Assembly: GCA_021323895.1 (NCBI GenBank) | Contig: JAJPKD010000162.1 | Span: 1-44,851 of the forward strand | Reading direction: 5' to 3' | DNA length: 44,851 nt | Source of the DNA: Acidobacteriota bacterium | Lineage (GTDB): Bacteria; Acidobacteriota; Blastocatellia; Pyrinomonadales; Pyrinomonadaceae | Shown: in pieces, positions 7,268 to 38,000 of the stretch | Layout of the letters: each line of letters starts with the position of its first letter | Numbering within the stretch: the stretch's first letter is position 1 | Translations under genes and position numbers: made by a program | Notes under the pieces: generated by a model | The model's input: only the letters and a program-made list of their open reading frames with translations | The model's database searches: none | Told to the model about the DNA's origin: nothing

Positions 7268-8002
7268 GTGAAAGCGGAGTTAGCGCAGTTAATCGCTTTG
7301 CAGAATGCAGACACCAATATAAGAAACCTACAGGCCGAAATTGAAAGCATCCCAGAGAGGCGCGCCGAGATCGAAAAAGAATTCGATCAGCGCGCCTTTG
7401 AAATTCGCACGCTGGAACAACAACGCGATGCAGCTTTCCACGAACGGGCCCGCCTGGAAAAAGAGATCTTCGATCAGAAGCAACGCGCCGAACGCGCGGA
7501 CCGAAATTTGATGGCGGCGAAGAAGCCTGACGAATACACCGCCGCAATTCGCGAGGCCGACGCGGCGCGCAAACAAATTTCGGCGTTCGAGACGAACGTG
7601 CTCGAACAGATGGAAGCGTTCGAAACGGCCGAGAACCAGTTGAAAGAGCGCGCGCCGGAAGTTGAAAAGCTGCGGGTCGAAATGGAAGCGAGCTTCAAAG
7701 CATTCGATGAGCAGGTGCAACAACAGCAGAAAGAGGTGGAAGCCGCGCGGGCCGATCGCGAGCGCATTATCAATGAACTGCCAAAACCGATGGCCGCGAT
7801 GTTCAAGCGCATCAGCGCGCGGATTCGCGACGGCGTCGCGGTGGCCGAAGCTCGCAACGGCGCCTGCACTGCTTGTTACATGGCTTTACGGCCGCAAATC
7901 ATGGCCGATGTGCGGCGCGGCGACGAAGTAATCACCTGCGACAATTGCAACCGGATTTTGTATTACGCGCCGGACAAGAAAGCCGAACCGGTGGGAGTCT
8001 AG
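7268..8002 (+). CDS. coiled-coil zinc-ribbon protein (DUF164/CT398-like)
   Basis: A 244-residue protein starting at GTG, with GAGGAG nine bases upstream. Residues 1-180 form a long charged coiled-coil hairpin (ALQNADTNIRNLQAEIESIP and onward). The C-terminus carries two CxxC pairs, ACTACYMALRP and CDNCNRILYY, forming a C4 zinc ribbon. This matches the bacterial DUF164/zf-RING_7 family, whose members have been linked to flagellar or secretion functions in some bacteria; its role here is unknown. The frame is open upstream to 6434, but that part is the antisense of the propeller gene. Confidence 0.88.
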   Translation: MKAELAQLIALQNADTNIRNLQAEIESIPERRAEIEKEFDQRAFEIRTLEQQRDAAFHERARLEKEIFDQKQRAERADRNLMAAKKPDEYTAAIREADAARKQISAFETNVLEQMEAFETAENQLKERAPEVEKLRVEMEASFKAFDEQVQQQQKEVEAARADRERIINELPKPMAAMFKRISARIRDGVAVAEARNGACTACYMALRPQIMADVRRGDEVITCDNCNRILYYAPDKKAEPVGV

Positions 8003-8035
8003 AGTTTCGAGTTCTGAGTTTCGAGTTTATAGTTG
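8002..8035 (+). repeat. heptanucleotide tandem repeat (GAGTTTC type)
   Basis: Units GAGTTTC, GAGTTCT, GAGTTTC, GAGTTTA and TAGTTGT run in 7-base phase from the last base of the zinc-ribbon gene stop codon. It lies between convergent genes. Confidence 0.75.
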
Positions 8036-11745: not shown

Positions 11746-14955
<3,210 letters not shown>

Positions 14956-14982
14956 TTACTTGATTCTGAGGTTAGCTTTTTT

Positions 14983-15074
14983 GATCTTTGTACTTTGTTC
15001 TTTGTGCTTAGTCGATCGCTAGTTCCGTGATGTTGACATAGCGAACAAAGTACAACGCTCAAAGTACTAAGCAC
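14983..15074. repeat. inverted heptamer arrays between actB and actC
   Basis: The left arm has units GATCTTT, GTACTTT, GTTCTTT and GTGCTTA. The right arm ends GAACAAAGTAC, AACGCTC, AAAGTAC, TAAGCAC. GTACTTTGTTC (14990-15000) and GAACAAAGTAC (15043-15053) are an 11-base perfect inverted repeat, and GTGCTTA pairs with TAAGCAC. It fills most of the 129-base gap. Confidence 0.85.
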
Positions 15075-15084
15075 GTTATTACTA

Positions 15085-16467
15085 ATGGACGAACAGCGAC
15101 ACGACGAGCTTCATTCATCCGTTCACGCGACGCACCCGGTCGTGGGGACTGAGCTGACCTTTGGCTCGGTCACCGACAAGATCAGCGCGATCGTTTTGAA
15201 GCGCAAGACGCCGATTGGCTGGTTCATCGGCTTTGCGATTTCGTTCGCGCTGTTCCAGTTGATGATGCTGGCGATGGTGAAGCTCTTCTTCGTCGGCATC
15301 GGCGAATGGGGCGTCAATGTTCCGGTCGCCTGGGGCATGGACATCCTCAACTTCGTCTGGTGGATCGGCATCGGCCATGCGGGCACTTTGATCTCGGCGA
15401 TTCTGCTGCTGCTGCGACAGAAGTGGCGCACGTCGATCAATCGATTCGCCGAAGCGATGACTTTGTTCGCGGTCGCGCAAGCCGGCATGTATCCGATCAT
15501 GCACCTGGGCCGGCCGTGGCTCGCCTACTGGCTGTTCCCTTACCCAAACACGATGGGCATCTGGCCGCAATTTCGCAGCCCGCTCATGTAGGACGTGTTC
15601 GCGGTTTCGACTTATGCGACGGTGTCAGCGATGTTCTGGTTCGTCGGATTGATTCCGGATTTTGCGACGCTGCGCGATCGGGCGAACAGCAAAGCCTTCC
15701 GGTTGATCTACGGACTCTTGGCGATGGGTTGGCGCGGATCGGCCCGGCACTGGCATCGCTACGAAATGGCGTACCTGCTGCTCGCCGGACTGGCCACGCC
15801 GCTCGTGCTTTCAGTGCACACGATCGTCAGCTTCGACTTCGCAGTCGGCATCATTCCAGGTTGGCACGCAACGATCTTCCCGCCGTACTTCGTCGCCGGC
15901 GCGATCTATGCCGGCTTTGCGATGGTTTTGTTGCTGACGATTCCGCTGCGAAAGATTTATGGCCTCGAGAGCTTCATCACGATGCGCCACATGAACAACA
16001 TGGCAAAGGTGATGCTGGCGACCGGCCTGATAGTTTTCTACGGCTACCTGATCGAAGCGTTCTTCGGTTGGTACAGCGGCAATCATTACGAACGCTTCAT
16101 GATTTGGAACCGCATGCACGGCCCGTACGCGCCGTACTATTGGGCGCTCATTTTCTGTAACGGCCTGACGCCGCAGTTGCTGTGGTTCAAGAAGATTCGC
16201 GCAAACCTGGTGCTGTTGTGGATCATTTCGGTAATCGTGAGCATCGGCATGTGGCTTGAGCGGTTCGTAATTGTCGTGACGAGTTTGCATCGGGATTTTC
16301 TGCCCTCATCGTGGGGCATGTATCAGCCATCGCAATGGGATTGGGCAATGTATGTCGGCACCATCGGGTTTTTCTTTGCGCTCTTGTTCCTGTTCATTCG
16401 GTTCTTACCGATGATTTCGATCTTCGAGATGCGCACGATTTTGCCGGCTGCGGAAGTTGAAGAATAG
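15085..16467 (+). pseudogene. actC: alternative complex III subunit ActC (NrfD-like), interrupted by an in-frame TAG
   Basis: The frame encodes about 460 residues of an NrfD/PsrC-like quinol-binding membrane subunit. It is continuous except for TAG at 15589-15591 (codon 169). Before it: [13 protein letters not shown], the [20 protein letters not shown] helix, and [18 protein letters not shown]. After it: DVFAVSTYATVSAMFWFVG, LIPDFATLRDR, and further helices to MRTILPAAEVEE. In relatives the residue between SPL(M/V) and DVF is, to my knowledge, Trp, so TGG to TAG is a single-base change. All other helices look intact and codon use is unchanged. The gene sits in a complete operon where loss of ActC should disable the complex. 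A sequencing error, a recent nonsense mutation or a nonsense suppressor are all possible. Confidence 0.88.
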
Positions 16468-16557: not shown

Positions 16558-17106
16558 ATGAAGCAAGGCAAGCCACACAAATCTCTCTACGGCGTGATGG
16601 CCCAGTTCGATAACCCGAGCCAGTTGGTGGCGGCGGCGAAAGAGACTTATGCCGCGGGTTATCGACAGATTAATGGCTACTCGCCGTTTCCGATCGAAGA
16701 GCTGTCGGAAGCGATCGGTTTCCGGCGCACGGCGCTGCCCTTGATCGTTCTGATTGGCGGAATCCTCGGCGGGCTGGGCGGATTTTTCATGCAGTACTGG
16801 ATGGAAGTGATCGACTATCCAATCAACGTCGGCGGCAAGCCGTTCAATAGTTGGCCGGCGTTCATTCCGATCACGTTTGAATGCACAGTCTTGGTGGCGG
16901 CATTTTCTGCCGTGCTCGGAATGCTTGCGCTGAACAAGCTGCCGCAACCGTATCATCGGGTTTTCAATGCGCCGCACTTTGCGCTGGCGACACGCGATAG
17001 TTTCTTTTTAGTGATCGAATCGAAAGATCCAAAGTTCGATCACGATGAAGCGGTTCGCTTCTTAAAGACTTTGGATCCGAGAGAAGTTGTTGATGTGGAA
17101 CTCTAG
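16558..17106 (+). CDS. actD: alternative complex III subunit ActD
   Basis: A 182-residue DUF3341-family protein. The N-terminal soluble part begins SLYGVMAQFDNPSQLVAAAK and includes GYRQINGYSPFPIEEL, a hallmark of ActD. Two membrane helices follow (ALPLIVLIGGILGGLGGFFM and TFECTVLVAAFSAVLGMLAL), enclosing the INVGGKPFNSWPAFIPI loop. It anchors the cytoplasmic side of the complex; no redox cofactor is expected. Its end overlaps the start region of actE. Confidence 0.95.
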   Translation: MKQGKPHKSLYGVMAQFDNPSQLVAAAKETYAAGYRQINGYSPFPIEELSEAIGFRRTALPLIVLIGGILGGLGGFFMQYWMEVIDYPINVGGKPFNSWPAFIPITFECTVLVAAFSAVLGMLALNKLPQPYHRVFNAPHFALATRDSFFLVIESKDPKFDHDEAVRFLKTLDPREVVDVEL

Positions 17107-17857
17107 AGAACAGAAGGCAGTTTGCAGAAATCAGAAAGCGGCATCAGCGGCTCGCCGCGTTGTTGTTTCCTGCCTCCTGCTTTTTGCCTTCTGCCTTCTG
17201 TCTTCCGGCTGCCGCCGCGACATGCAGGACCAGCCGAAGGCGATCGCCTATCGCGAGAATAAGTTCTACAAGGACGGCACGGGATCACGCCCGCTAGTTG
17301 AAGGCACTGTACCGCGTGGCTACTTGCGCGAAGATCGCGAGCTGTATCTCGGAAAGAAACTGACAGCGACTTCTTCGCAAACGGGCCCATTGATGACGCA
17401 ACCTGCGGGCGGACAATCTACCGCGCCGCAGACGCAGCTGCCGACTTCGCCGGTGAATCAAGCGAGCGCGAATCCATATCCGGATGACGTCGATACATTC
17501 CCGTTTGCGATTACGAAAGACGACATGAAGCGCGGCGAAGAGCGCTACAACATTTACTGTTCCGTCTGTCACGGCATGACAGGTTATGGCGACGGCATGA
17601 TCGCGCGGCGCGGATTCAACAAACCGGCGCCGGCCAATTATCACCAGGATCGTCTGCGACAAGCGCCGGTGGGCCATTTCTTTGACGTGATGACGAACGG
17701 CTGGGGCGCAATGCCGTCGTATGCATCGCAGGTTTCGGTGGAAGATCGTTGGCGCATCGCGGCGTACATTCGCGCGTTGCAGGTGAGCCAGATGAAGCCA
17801 GGCAGCAGCCCGACCGTTACGGAGGGCTCGAATACGCAGGCAGGAAAGACAAAGTAG
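17093..17857 (+). CDS. actE: alternative complex III subunit ActE, monoheme cytochrome c lipoprotein
   Basis: A 254-residue protein with a lipoprotein-type signal ending LLSSGC (lipobox Cys at residue 40) and one heme site, CSVCH (C156-H160). The following GMTGYGDGMIARRGF and MPSYASQVSVEDRWRIAAYI are typical of the ActE cytochrome c fold, with the axial Met in MPSYA. It is periplasmic and membrane-tethered, probably the exit heme toward the oxidase. The start ATG overlaps the actD end by 14 bases. Residues about 7-38, including the hydrophobic core of the signal, are encoded by heptamer repeats of CAGAAGG/CCTTCTG type. Confidence 0.92.
   Translation: MWNSREQKAVCRNQKAASAARRVVVSCLLLFAFCLLSSGCRRDMQDQPKAIAYRENKFYKDGTGSRPLVEGTVPRGYLREDRELYLGKKLTATSSQTGPLMTQPAGGQSTAPQTQLPTSPVNQASANPYPDDVDTFPFAITKDDMKRGEERYNIYCSVCHGMTGYGDGMIARRGFNKPAPANYHQDRLRQAPVGHFFDVMTNGWGAMPSYASQVSVEDRWRIAAYIRALQVSQMKPGSSPTVTEGSNTQAGKTK
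17111..17207. repeat. inverted heptamer arrays forming the actE signal peptide
   Basis: Left units CAGAAGG, CAGTTTG, CAGAAAT, CAGAAAG; right units CCTGCCT, CCTGCTT, TTTGCCT, TCTGCCT, TCTGTCT. CAGAAGGCAG (17111-17120) and CTGCCTTCTG (17191-17200) are perfectly complementary. The right arm encodes SCLLLFAFCLLSS. Confidence 0.85.
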
Positions 17858-19129: not shown

Positions 19130-19639
19130 ATGGCGGAGAAACATCACACCACCGAAACGCCGGACACTTCTTACATCAAGAACATTGATGTGACGCACGA
19201 AGTGAGCGACGTGCACGTGCCGGCGATTGCCAAGTTCGTCGTTGCGCTGGCTGTTCTGATGGTCTTCTCGTTCTTTTTGGTCTGGGGAATCTTTCGGATG
19301 TTCGCGGCTCAGACCGTCGAGCCGCCGCGCTCGCCCATGGCGTTGAGTGAAAAGGATCGGCTGCCGCCCGAGCCTCGTCTGCAAAGCGCGCCGGGCTTAG
19401 CTGGGGAATTGGAGAAAGCCGCGCAGAGCGGAAAGGAAAAGCGCGGCGGGCAAGCGAATGAAGTAACCAACAGGGCGCCCGCGCCCAAAGGTCCGCTGTG
19501 GGAAATTCAGATTCTGCGCGAACAATGGAACGACGTGCTGAAGAATGGACCAACCGATCAGAATGGTCAGCGCTATGGCATGCCCATTGAGCAAGCGAAG
19601 GAAGAAGCGTTGAAGCAGTTGAAAGTGAGGAAGCAGTAG
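19130..19639 (+). CDS. single-span membrane protein of the act-cox operon, unknown role
   Basis: A 169-residue protein with one membrane helix (about 40-62, AKFVVALAVLMVFSFFLVWGI). A Pro-rich segment (VEPPRSPMALSEKDRLPPEP) follows, then a soluble tail. The tail ends with an amphipathic motif YGMPIEQAKEEALKQL; a short domain with the same (M/I)PI-x-x-A pattern is common beside ActE and cytochrome oxidase genes. No heme or metal motif is present. Position between actF and SCO suggests an accessory or assembly subunit of alternative complex III or of the oxidase. The name is left open. Confidence 0.75.
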   Translation: MAEKHHTTETPDTSYIKNIDVTHEVSDVHVPAIAKFVVALAVLMVFSFFLVWGIFRMFAAQTVEPPRSPMALSEKDRLPPEPRLQSAPGLAGELEKAAQSGKEKRGGQANEVTNRAPAPKGPLWEIQILREQWNDVLKNGPTDQNGQRYGMPIEQAKEEALKQLKVRKQ

Positions 19640-19732
19640 CAGTATGCAGAAAGCAGTAAGCAGAAAACCGAGTCTCTTAGTTTGGCGATGCGTCGTTTTC
19701 TGCCTTCTGCTTTCCGCCTTCTGCCTTCTGGC
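19639..19732. repeat. inverted heptamer arrays forming the SCO signal peptide
   Basis: Left units GCAGTAT, GCAGAAA, GCAGTAA, GCAGAAA (19639-19666) include the SCO start codon. Right units TTCTGCC, TTCTGCT, TTCCGCC, TTCTGCC, TTCTGGC (19698-19732) encode FCLLLSAFCLL. The arms are partly complementary (GAAAGCAG and CTGCTTTC). Confidence 0.82.
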
Positions 19733-20558
19733 ACACGCCCAGCCCGGAGTGCCGCAGCCGAACTCGCCCCTGTACGGCGGCGGGATGCGCTCGGGCGATG
19801 TGGCGACGGGGCTGCCGCCGGTGCTGAAGAAAGTTGGCATCGATCAGAAGTTGAACGGGCAGCTTCCGCTCGACGCCGTTTTCAAAGACGAGCAAGGTAA
19901 TGAAGTTCGTCTGGGTCAGTACTTCAAAGGCAAGCCGGTAGTGATCGCGCTCGTCTATTACACGTGTCCGATGCTGTGCAATCAGGTGATGAACGGCATG
20001 CTCGGATCGTTTCGACAGATTTCTTTCAATGCCGGTGAACAGTTTGAAGTCGTAACCGTGAGTTTTGATACGAAAGACACACCGTCGATTGCGGCCGCCA
20101 AGAAAACGACGTACATCGCCGGCTATAACCGGCCGAGCGGGAACGCCGGCTGGCATTTCCTGACGGGCGACGATGCGAACATCAAGCGACTCGCGGAAGC
20201 AGTCGGTTTTCGCTACACGTGGGACGAACAGACGAAACAATATGCGCACGCCAGCGGCATCATGATCGCCACGCCCGGGGGAAAACTCGCGCGCTATTTT
20301 TACGGCATTGATTATCCGCCGCGCGATTTGCGGCTGGCGCTGGTCGAAGCTTCGGAAAACAAGATCGGCACGCCGGTCGATGCGCTGATGCTCTATTGCT
20401 ATCACTACGATCCGGCAACGGGAAAATACGGTGCAGTGATAATGAACATCATTCGCGTCGCCGGCATCATGACTTTGATTGTGATGGGTTTAATGTTTTT
20501 GGTTTTGAGAAAGATCGCGGCCCGGCGACAGTTGGTTGCGTCAGCAGCCCGACCGTGA
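19644..20558 (+). CDS. SCO1/SenC-family copper chaperone for cytochrome oxidase
   Basis: A 304-residue protein. The signal peptide is followed by a thioredoxin-fold SCO domain with the copper site TCPMLC (C108, C112) and the downstream His in QYAHASGIM. VVTVSFDTKDTP is the usual SCO strand. An unusual C-terminal membrane helix (GIMTLIVMGLMFLVL) ends the protein, a layout common for SCO proteins in act-cox operons. It should load the CuA centre of the adjacent CoxB. The start lies within a heptamer repeat four bases after the previous stop, so translation may be coupled. Confidence 0.93.
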   Translation: MQKAVSRKPSLLVWRCVVFCLLLSAFCLLAHAQPGVPQPNSPLYGGGMRSGDVATGLPPVLKKVGIDQKLNGQLPLDAVFKDEQGNEVRLGQYFKGKPVVIALVYYTCPMLCNQVMNGMLGSFRQISFNAGEQFEVVTVSFDTKDTPSIAAAKKTTYIAGYNRPSGNAGWHFLTGDDANIKRLAEAVGFRYTWDEQTKQYAHASGIMIATPGGKLARYFYGIDYPPRDLRLALVEASENKIGTPVDALMLYCYHYDPATGKYGAVIMNIIRVAGIMTLIVMGLMFLVLRKIAARRQLVASAARP

Positions 20559-31972: not shown

Positions 31973-32005
31973 AGCAGAAGTCAGAGATCAGATGTCAGAT
32001 GTCGG
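31973..32005 (+). repeat. heptamer tandem repeat (GTCAGAT type)
   Basis: AGCAGAA, GTCAGAG, ATCAGAT, GTCAGAT, GTCGG in 7-base phase, starting right at the stop of the Sec-peroxiredoxin gene and merging into the terminator hairpin. Confidence 0.75.
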
Positions 32006-32038
32006 AATCGACGTTCCGGCATCTGGCATTTTTCTTTC
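31996..32038 (+). terminator. terminator hairpin after the Sec-peroxiredoxin gene
   Basis: CAGATGTCGGAA (31996-32007), loop TCGACG, TTCCGGCATCTG (32014-32025): a 12-bp stem with one T:G pair, followed by GCATTTTTCTTT. It is partly built from the heptamer array. Confidence 0.75.
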
Positions 32039-33435: not shown

Positions 33436-33455
33436 GCATCAGACCATTCTGATGC
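33436..33455. promoter_or_regulatory. hairpin upstream of the Cys-rich protein gene
   Basis: GCATCAGA, loop CCAT, TCTGATGC, an 8-bp perfect stem 32 bases before the start. Around it ATCTGCCTGCA (33380-33390) and TGCAGGCAGAT (33453-33463) form a longer 11-base inverted repeat overlapping the hairpin arm, so two alternative foldings are possible. A metal-responsive operator or leader structure is a guess. Confidence 0.45.
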
Positions 33456-33487
33456 AGGCAGATATTTCTTTAACAGGAGAACTAGCT

Positions 33488-33895
33488 ATGAATACTTTTA
33501 GACGTTTTATTCCCGCCCTCGTGCTGGGACTGACAATTGCGCTGGCCGGTGTTTCGGTGGCGCAGAACGCGAGACAAACCAGCGGCGACAAGAAAGCCTC
33601 GTGCTGCAGTTGCTGTACTGATTCGTGTCCGATGATAAAAAAGGATGCGATGAAGAATCACACGATGGCCACTGACAAGGACGGCTGTTGCGGCGATTCA
33701 TGCGACATGAAGAAGAAAGACAGCATGAAGAACCACACCATGGCGACTGACAAAGACGATTGCTGTGGTGATTCGTGTGACATGAAGAATCACGCGAAAT
33801 CCGGCACGACAATGAAGATGTCTTCCGAAAAGCATGACTGCTGCGGCGATTCGTGCAATATGAAAGACATGAAGGAGATGAAACCAAAACCGTAG
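33488..33895 (+). CDS. exported Cys-rich repeat protein, putative copper-binding
   Basis: A 135-residue protein. The signal peptide (RRFIPALVLGLTIALAGVSVAQ) is followed by a hydrophilic domain with 14 Cys. CCSCCTDSC (39-47) is followed by three CCGDSC motifs at 67, 92 and 118, plus Met/His-rich linkers. A 25-residue unit starting MKNHTMATDKD is repeated exactly in tandem (units starting at 55 and 80, 75 bases apart). The pattern fits a periplasmic metallothionein-like metal sponge next to copper efflux genes. AGGAGAA lies upstream of the ATG at 33488. No named family. Confidence 0.82.
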   Translation: MNTFRRFIPALVLGLTIALAGVSVAQNARQTSGDKKASCCSCCTDSCPMIKKDAMKNHTMATDKDGCCGDSCDMKKKDSMKNHTMATDKDDCCGDSCDMKNHAKSGTTMKMSSEKHDCCGDSCNMKDMKEMKPKP

Positions 33896-34919: not shown

Positions 34920-35001
34920 TTGTCCGTTGTCAGAGTTGTCCGTGGTGGTTGCATAGGCCACGGGAGAACCAGACTACTGACAACTGACTACTAACAACTG
35001 A
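34920..35001. repeat. inverted heptamer arrays before cusA
   Basis: Left units TTGTCCG, TTGTCAG; right units CTACTGA, CAACTGA, CTACTAA, CAACTGA. TTGTCAG pairs with CTGACAA (34977-34983), and CCGTGG with CCACGG inside. The right arm ends one base before the cusA GTG start, so it overlaps the ribosome site region. Confidence 0.8.
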
Positions 35002-35002
35002 C

Positions 35003-38000
35003 GTGATTCAGAAGTTAATTGAAGTCGCAATGCGCAATCGCGGTCTGGTGATCGCGATCTATCTCGGGCTCGCCGCCTGGGGTTATTGGGCATTGCTGCG
35101 CACGCCGATCGATGCGATTCCCGACCTGTCTGAGAACCAGGTCATCGTCTTCACCGATTGGCCGGGCCGTTCTCCGCAAGAGGTCGAAGATCAGGTGACC
35201 TATCCGCTGGTGACGAACCTGCAAGGTTTGCCCGGCGTGCGCGTGGTGCGCGCAAGTTCGGCGTTCGGCTTTTCGATGATCAATATCATCTTTGAAGACA
35301 ACGTCGATCTTTACTGGGCGCGTACGCGCGTGCTGGAGCGTTTGAATCTTGTCACCGCGCAGTTGCCGCAAGGCGTCACTCCCACGCTCGGCCCGGATGC
35401 AACCGGCGTCGGTCAAATCTTCTGGTACACGTTGGAGAGCGATCAGATGAGCCTGCGCGACCTGCGCAGCTTGCAGGACTGGTTCGTTCGCTATCAGTTG
35501 AACTCAGTGCCCGGTGTCGCCGAAGTCGCCAGCGTCGGCGGCTACGTCCAGCAGTACCAGGTCGACGTAGATCCGAACAAGCTGCGCTCATACGGCCTGC
35601 CACTGTCGATGGTCGTCGAAGCTGTCGAACGATCGAACCGCAACGTCGGCGGCAACGTAGTCGAGCAGGCGGGCCAGTGGTCGGTCGTTCGGGGCGTCGG
35701 CCTAATCGAATCAAGTGCGGACATCGAGAACATCCCGCTGACGGCGCAGAATGGCATTCCGATTTACGTCAAGAACGTCGCGACAGTGAAACTCGGCAAT
35801 GCGTTTCGTCAGGGAGCGCTGGACAAGAACGGCAAAGAGGCAGTCGGTGGGGTCGTCATCGCGCGATATGGCGTGAACACGCTGGCAGTCATCGATGCGA
35901 TTAAACAGAAGATCGCAGCCATTCAAAGCGGCCTGCCAAAAGGCGTTCAGGTCGTTCCCTTCTACGATCGCACGCAACTGATTCAACGCGCCACGCACAC
36001 TTTGAAGCGCGCGCTGATTGAAGAGCTGATCCTCGTCACGCTCGCGCACATCCTGTTTCTCGCGCACTTCCGCTCGATTCTGATCGTCACGATTCCTTTG
36101 CCGCTCGCAGTACTGCTCGCGTTTCTGTTCATGTACTACGCCGGAATCAGCTCGCATCTAATGTCGCTGTCGGGTATTGCGATCGCGATTGGCGTGCTGG
36201 TTGACGCGGGAATTGTCGTCACGGAAAACGCTTTTCGCTTCATCGAAAAGCGAAAGATCGACACGAGGGATCGGCCGCTGGTCTGGCAAACGGTTCTGGA
36301 GTCAACGCGTTTGGTTGGTCGTCCGATTTTCTTCTCGATGGCGATCATTATCCTCGCATTCGTGCCCGTGTTCGCGCTGACGGGCGAAGAAGGAAAGCTG
36401 TTTCATCCGCTGGCATTCACCAAGACGTTCGCGATGGTGGGCGCGACGATCATCGCCGTGACGTTGGTGCCGGTGCTCTGCACTCTGCTTTTGCGCGGCA
36501 AATTCCATGCAGAGCAAGCCAATCCGGTGATGCGCGCGCTGCACTTCATTTATCGCCCGGTGTTGCGATTTGCATTGAACCATCGGCTTATCACAGTGGC
36601 GCTCGCCGTGCTGCTGTTCGCCGGTGCGTTGTTTCTCGCCACGGGCATCGGCAAAGAGTTCATGCCGCCGCTCAACGAAGGCGACTTAATGTTTATGCCG
36701 GTGACCGATCCAGCGATCTCGATCGATGAAGCGCTGAAGATCACGCAACGTCAGGACGAAATTCTCAAGACCGTTCCCGAAGTCGAATGGGCCGTCGGCA
36801 AAGCCGGCCGCGCGGAAACTTCAACCGATCCGTCGCCGATCAATATGACGGAAACGGTGATCCACTTGAAAGATCCGGCGCAGTGGCGAGCAGGCATGAC
36901 GCGCGAATCGCTGATCGCTGAGCTGGACGAGAAGTTGCGCATGCCCGGCGTCACAAACATTTGGACGCAGCCGATTAAGAACCGGATCGACATGCTTTCA
37001 ACCGGCATTCGTTCGCAGGTTGGCATCAAGATCTTCGGAAACGATCTGAAGACGCTCGAAGACTTATCACGCCGCACTGCCGAACTTTTACGCAATGTTC
37101 CTGGCGCGAAAGACGTGTACCCGGAACAAATCAGCGGCGCGCCTTACATCGACATCAAAATCAATCGCACCGCCGCCGCGCGCTACGGTATCGACCAGCA
37201 AACCATCAACGAGGCCATCGAAAAAGGCATTGGCGAAACAAACCTGACGGTGACGATTGAAGGCCGGCGTCGCTTCCCAGTGCGCGTGCGTTTCGCGCCG
37301 GAGTTTCGTGGCAACGTGCCGGCGATCGGAGCAATTCCGGTTACTTCGCCGACAGGCCAGCCGATTCCGCTTTCACAACTCACCGAGATTACCCAAGTGC
37401 AAGGGCCGACGATGATTTCAAGCGAGAACGGACTGCTGCGCGGCACGGTTCTGTTGAACGTGCGCGGTCGCGATGTCGGCGGGTTTGTTGACGAAGCCAA
37501 AGCCGCAATCGCGCGGCAAGTGCAGATGCCGACCGGTTATTACGTCGAATGGAGCGGCGAATACGAAAACCAACAACGCGCGCGCAGCCGTCTGCTTCTG
37601 GTTGTCCCGATCGTGCTGATTGTGATCTTCGCGTTGCTTTACATCACTTATCACTCGGCGCTCGAAGCAGCGCACGTGCTGATGGCCGTTCCTTTCGCTT
37701 TGACCGGCGGCATCTATTTGCTCTGGGCACTGGGTTACGACTTCTCAGTCGCGGTGTGGGTTGGCTTCATCGCGCTATTCGGCACGGCAGTGCAGACGGC
37801 GGTGGTTATGGTGATCTATTTGGAAGAGGCAGTCGAGCGAAAGAAGGCCGAAGTCGGTCAATTGGATCGATCTTCACTGATCGAAGCGGTAATGGAAGGC
37901 GCGCTGCTGCGTTTGCGGCCAAAGGTAATGACGGTTTCGACCGTGGTCGCTTCGCTGCTTCCAATTATGTGGAGCACGAGCGCAGGCGCGGAAGTCATGA

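Follow-up and report, generated by a model that had tools for sequence, protein, structure and literature searches.

Rickettsia palindromic elements (RPEs) are the classic case of palindromes inside protein-coding genes. They form defined families of about 100-150 bp that are conserved in sequence through the loop and inserted at many protein positions. The repeats described here resemble RPEs in being palindromic, dispersed DNA that lies in frame inside genes, but their loops are unrelated as judged by eye, each arm is an array of heptamers, and signal peptides are the preferred site. With REP/BIME and RAYT elements they share the dispersed hairpins and the presence of a Y1_Tnp gene in the source genome, whereas the period-7 arms set them apart; no conserved tetranucleotide foot or unit was noticed, and the flanks of the Y1_Tnp genes showed no strong heptamer arrays. 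The TAACTGA heptamers of Beggiatoaceae, Cyanobacteria and some Bacteroidetes are direct repeats located mostly just upstream of start codons, and their coding copies (LSVISYQ) survive at protein peripheries; signal peptides do not appear in the text of that study (MacGregor 2015, PMC4679880). Common to both systems are dispersed period-7 arrays that are mostly intergenic and near start codons, and MacGregor's version (TTATCAG)n occurs in three leaders of the cytochrome subunit ActE (L054, L056, L074). However, MacGregor's repeats are mainly single direct arrays of one conserved heptamer, whereas many heptamers, often two-armed, recur here in signal peptides. The units of the source genome are CTGCYWT and many others rather than TAACTGA, and TTATCAG was seen only in some relatives. 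A search of the open-access literature for repeat-built signal peptides, heptamers in Acidobacteria and repeats in Pyrinomonadaceae returned nothing direct, and the recurrent supply of signal peptides by heptamer repeats at one locus appears to be new with respect to this literature.

The analysed window, a stretch of 44,851 nt, is part of the genome of a soil member of the Pyrinomonadaceae (Acidobacteriota; 4.4 Mb in 322 contigs) and contains an alternative complex III cluster according to profile matches to Pfam. The following features are relevant to the leader repeats:

16558..17106, + strand, actD (Pfam ActD 4e-66)
17093..17857, + strand, actE, monohaem cytochrome c subunit of alternative complex III, lipoprotein precursor of 254 aa (Pfam Cytochrome_CBB3 2e-12; adjoins ActD)
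17093..17209, + strand, leader built from the repeat, MWNSREQKAVCRNQKAASAARRVVVSCLLLFAFCLLSSG, 39 codons preceding that of the lipobox Cys
17104-17106, + strand, actD stop codon, left border of the insert zone
17110..17139, + strand, purine arm of the inverted heptamer repeat, encoding the positive n-region (REQKAVCRNQKA)
17170..17205, + strand, pyrimidine period-7 array (CTGCCTT)5 found by TRF, encoding the hydrophobic h-region (SCLLLFAFCLLS)
17210..17212, + strand, lipobox Cys codon, conserved in the family (CRRDMQDQP)
19638..19733, + strand, second heptamer inverted repeat (AGCAGAA ... TTCTGCC)
19644..20558, + strand, SCO1/SenC-like protein (Pfam SCO1-SenC 1.6e-8), signal peptide MQKAVSRKPSLLVWRCVVFCLLLSAFCLLAHA^Q built from the heptamer repeat

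The assignment of actE is based on its monohaem CxxCH domain, its position after actD and its lipobox leader, and the closest solved chains are the ActE subunits 8k9e_E and 6f0k_E. Its ATG at 17093 lies inside the 3' end of actD, with an overlap of 14 nt. The leader MWNSREQKAVCRNQKAASAARRVVVSCLLLFAFCLLSSG^C precedes RRDMQDQP and ends in LSSG^C, where the residues before the cysteine (S-S-G) form an imperfect lipobox, although the cysteine is invariant across 18 aligned relatives. A positive n-region, a hydrophobic h-region and a cysteine near the N-terminus are all present as features of a lipoprotein signal. ActE of Rhodothermus marinus has been proposed to be a lipoprotein at Cys24 with a short leader (PMC5928083). 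From the sequence and the homology to this protein, we infer that the leader in the window would be a working export and lipoprotein signal.

The original prediction held that a heptamer repeat underlies the ActE signal peptide and that its pyrimidine arm translates into a Leu/Phe/Cys-rich hydrophobic peptide ending at the lipobox. The repeat is real: TRF reports the unit CTGCCTT at 17170-17205 with period 7, 5.1 copies and 79% matches, and a repeat search places inverted arms of 30 nt each, 77% complementary, at 17110-17139 and 17172-17201. The residues given at that time, CLLLFAFCLLSS, are exact, and the proposal that a repeat arm encodes the h-region is supported, with the export function being predicted. 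The proposal can also be widened, since the entire leader rather than one arm is repeat-built and the purine arm encodes the n-region. Therefore, the leader is very probably a period-7 inverted repeat of the dispersed class in the 5' end of actE that would now serve as its Sec/lipoprotein signal peptide. A second case in the window is the SCO1/SenC-like gene, whose leader peptide at 19644 is MQKAVSRKPSLLVWRCVVFCLLLSAFCLLAHAQ.

ActE was detected in 106 of the family's 119 genomes, which are mostly represented by MAGs. Each leader was taken to begin at the start codon that overlaps actD and to end at the lipobox Cys; this start codon was identified in 98 of the 106 loci. Tested against 100 dinucleotide shuffles, period 7 reached significance (p <= 0.02) in 66/106 leaders, compared to 1/106 controls of equal length from the start of the mature protein and 1/105 from the actD end. 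A significant inverted repeat was detected in 34/106 leaders and either measure in 70/106, compared to 2/106 and 2/105 in the respective controls, so that many of the leaders without a significant inverted repeat are single arrays or decayed hairpins. At scores of at least 16/21, period 7 occurs in 49 leaders, period 14 in 47 and period 8 in 9, with 0-1 for any other period. The heptamers vary (CTGCYWT, CTGCTCA, TTTTKMC, CTGATAA read as TTATCAG, TTTGGAC, TTTCCCC and others) and are unlike between genera and even between sister species, while 8-mers or GC-rich palindromes are found in the leaders of L040, L047, L051, L053 and L120.

About 36-40 leaders are repeat-free and mostly short, for example that of L063 (MLKNRLLGLLTVMLLFLGAG^C) and those of L062 and L065, and the repeats are therefore dispensable. 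These leaders end at the same lipobox Cys and keep both this residue and RxDMQDQP, which appears in one large genus as the variant CGxRxDMQDQP. Relatives that lack the repeat and yet encode the same signal peptide residues, which would speak against a repeat origin, were looked for and are absent, as the repeat-free leaders are short and different. Only the lipobox Cys and RxDMQDQP are common to the compared N-termini, and many leaders consist of other repeats.

The seven leader classes are coarse, and some of their weak period-7 calls (13-15/21) may be due to chance. Mapped on a tree of 104 mature ActE sequences, these classes require no fewer than 46 changes, of which the starred branches alone force 12 in the CTG class and 12 in the class without repeats. 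Compared to its sister L113 with a short leader (MYLNKTQTYTLLVVAIAVVSSAC), L115 carries an additional 36 nt of a CCAAAGT-like heptamer right behind the actD stop codon and retains the native h-region. In the same way, L120 has an 8-mer insert at this place that its sisters L116 and L123 lack. In the close sisters L044 and L049, the heptamer is unlike in both arms. The sister pairs are unrooted as to gain or loss, and no target-site duplication was seen in them. Their borders indicate that the insert zone is bounded by the actD stop codon on one side and the lipobox on the other. By sequence comparison, the same leader spot is thus repeatedly filled by different heptamer-type repeats across the family.

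The repeats are not confined to these leaders. The unit CTGCCTTCTGCCTTCTG, with at most two mismatches, has 84 matches in the source genome compared to 2 for a reversed control, and the 7-mer family of the ActE leader occurs at about 29 places. This survey covered targeted stretches around pattern matches and a 576-kb sample. At the places that were read, a purine arm on the 5' side and a pyrimidine arm on the 3' side of a hairpin enclose a loop that is unrelated between copies. Most of these hairpins are non-coding; the few within leaders belong to actE, to the SCO1/SenC-like gene (19644), to a protein in L020 that is large and secreted, and to one in L010 with a leader of prepilin type. The 576-kb sample holds 50 head-to-tail period-7 arrays, as in dispersed heptanucleotide repeats, compared to 1, 15, 2, 5 and 4 for periods 5, 6, 8, 9 and 10, with the masked contig L244 contributing one false element to every period. 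The period-7 arrays are mainly intergenic or situated at the ends of genes, and four lie inside genes.

Several individual copies were observed in addition. The hairpin at L010:1959-2042 forms a type IV pilin leader, with the prepilin-like sequence LPSAYCLLPSG^FTLLELMIVISI. Two in-frame period-7 inserts of the same genome, at L246:4424-4471 and L233:4143-4185, lie in cytosolic-looking proteins (RRSEFQVSSLKSQAAG and HQRQGSGVRGQGSEK, respectively). Within actB, the arrays at 13340-13386 and 13567-13602 encode 16 and 12 residues inside the mature protein, probably in linkers. Further period-7 arrays with other units are located at gene borders (34970-35003, 7995-8034, 14977-15014 and 31974-32008), the first of them directly 5' of a GTG start at 35003.

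A genome-wide survey of signal peptides for period-7 DNA had been suggested by the original prediction. Based on the 576-kb sample of the source genome and a simple home-made rule for signal-peptide-like leaders, 4 of 59 such leaders contain period-7 DNA compared to 0 of 364 other N-termini; without the two cases from the window the difference is only marginal (2 compared to 0, p ~0.02). A comparison of 80 named loci, restricted to the in-frame N-terminal part that precedes the conserved core, found arrays in 37/74 ActE and 15/68 SCO N-termini, compared to 13/353 in six other cluster genes (Fisher 2e-20, indicative only because the loci are related). ActE and SCO are the two signal-peptide genes of the cluster. 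Heptamer-built ActE leaders also occur in loci titled Ignavibacteriae or Bacteroidetes, namely L203 (ATTACGA / TTCTTAC), L187 (TTCTTAA) and L219, which suggests that they extend beyond Pyrinomonadaceae and Acidobacteriota if the bins are correctly named.

A possible reason for this preference is the composition of the repeats. In the two-armed CTGCYWT elements of this genome, the purine-rich arm precedes the pyrimidine-rich one, whichever strand is read. Purine codons yield K/R/Q/E/G, suited to an n-region, and pyrimidine codons L/F/P/S/A/C, suited to an h-region, and since the purine arm comes first on both strands, any such palindrome reads as charged and then hydrophobic. As 7 is not a multiple of 3, all three frames give one cyclic heptapeptide (LPSAFCL for CTGCCTT, KAEGRRQ for AAGGCAG), so that the phase is nearly irrelevant. 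In 14 two-armed hairpins of the same genome, most of them non-coding, a module of positive n-region and h-region was found in 18 of 84 frames, compared to a mean of 1.26 in random windows (maximum 5, 100 trials) and 0 with the arms swapped. Repeat-built and repeat-free leaders have h-regions with KD values of 2.65 and 2.82 and n-region charges of +5 and +3, respectively. The coding frame is open in 63/63 repeat leaders, compared to 9/63 and 2/63 for the other frames, which shows that the frame is maintained. Arrays of units like TAAGCAG run into a stop at every third unit whatever the frame, and this would explain why the purine arms of coding copies are decayed. The mechanism, in which a purine arm and a pyrimidine arm spell charged and then hydrophobic residues, we infer in part.

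The stretch between the actD stop and the lipobox Cys would be the only one that neither gene needs at the sequence level, and repeats could therefore be repeatedly tolerated, replaced or expanded there. They may insert or expand at the junction through transposition or replication and would persist because they are tolerated, not because of a function as RNA. The resulting ActE leader peptide would be exported and lipidated. This suggests that scattered 'junk' palindromes can act as ready-made signal peptides. Whether purine-pyrimidine heptamer palindromes are signal modules whose spread is a general, repeated bacterial route for replacing or creating export signals, in Acidobacteriota as well as in the Ignavibacteriae- and Bacteroidetes-titled MAGs (e.g. 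L203, L187), is a tentative proposal to which we give slightly less than even confidence. Such a route would link the heptamer hairpins, which are abundant in bacterial genomes and lack an explanation, with the rapid turnover of signal peptides, two subjects which have until now been treated apart. The geometry of purine arm, loop and pyrimidine arm would offer a simple reason why an n-region followed by an h-region can be read in any frame, and with dozens of natural replacements, this one locus makes the repeat origin of export signals testable.

Alternatively, the repeat might be kept as an RNA hairpin at the actD/actE junction, acting in translation coupling, mRNA stability or attenuation, with the peptide merely tolerated. 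The RNA fold of the leader beats 200 of 200 dinucleotide shuffles (z = -3.4), the heptamer change between L044 and L049 affects both arms, and most copies elsewhere are non-coding hairpins. In addition, translational regulation has been proposed for TAACTGA heptamers upstream of starts (MacGregor, PMC4679880). Nevertheless, this explanation is unlikely, though it deserves some weight, because a significant inverted repeat is far less frequent among the leaders (34/106) than period 7 (66), about a third of the leaders have neither repeat type, frame and hydrophobicity are strictly kept, and the arrays avoid the other genes in the operon.

The hairpins could also be REP- or MITE-like elements that a tyrosine (Y1/RAYT-type) transposase mobilises and that landed in leaders by chance. 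The genome has Y1_Tnp matches, the empty and filled sister pairs resemble insertions, and the leader of L047 contains a GC-rich REP-like palindrome. However, the loops are unrelated between copies, unlike those of copies of one mobile element, strong period-7 arrays are absent from the Y1_Tnp flanks, and the sister pairs are without target-site duplications, leaving this explanation rather improbable.

Signal peptides are compositionally biased, and Leu/Phe/Cys-rich hydrophobic peptides could in principle yield period-7 DNA by themselves, without any repeat element. Such a convergence is highly improbable, and none of the results speaks for it. When the peptide of the ActE leader was recoded synonymously, only 1 of 2000 sequences equalled its period-7 score (18/21), so that the peptide alone cannot account for the DNA period, and that of the SCO leader (17) by 6 of 2000. 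Furthermore, periods beyond 7, 14 and 8 are absent, the purine n-region contains the same 7-mer as its reverse complement, identical 7-mers occur in non-coding DNA of the genome, and repeat-free leaders are just as hydrophobic. A chance period arising from amino-acid composition was ruled out for the strong cases by synonymous recoding. A true ActE start downstream of the repeat, which would make the repeat only a spacer, has no observation in its favour and can hardly be reconciled with the data, since the frame that starts at 17093 contains no further ATG, GTG or TTG ahead of the lipobox Cys, so that a downstream start could not remove the repeat, an AGGAGG lies just 5' of the homologous ATG in many relatives, and frame 0 is open in all of the repeat leaders.

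Two further observations concern other genes in the window. The 460-aa frame of actC (15085-16467) is interrupted by a single in-frame TAG at 15589-15591, which is present in 0 of 71 relatives with a match spanning that point and is likely an assembly error or a nonsense change. The ORF at 33452-33895 contains a 75-nt tandem repeat (33650-33789) and encodes a small secreted protein, rich in Cys, Met and His with a repeated DCCGDSCDMK, which is perhaps metal-binding.
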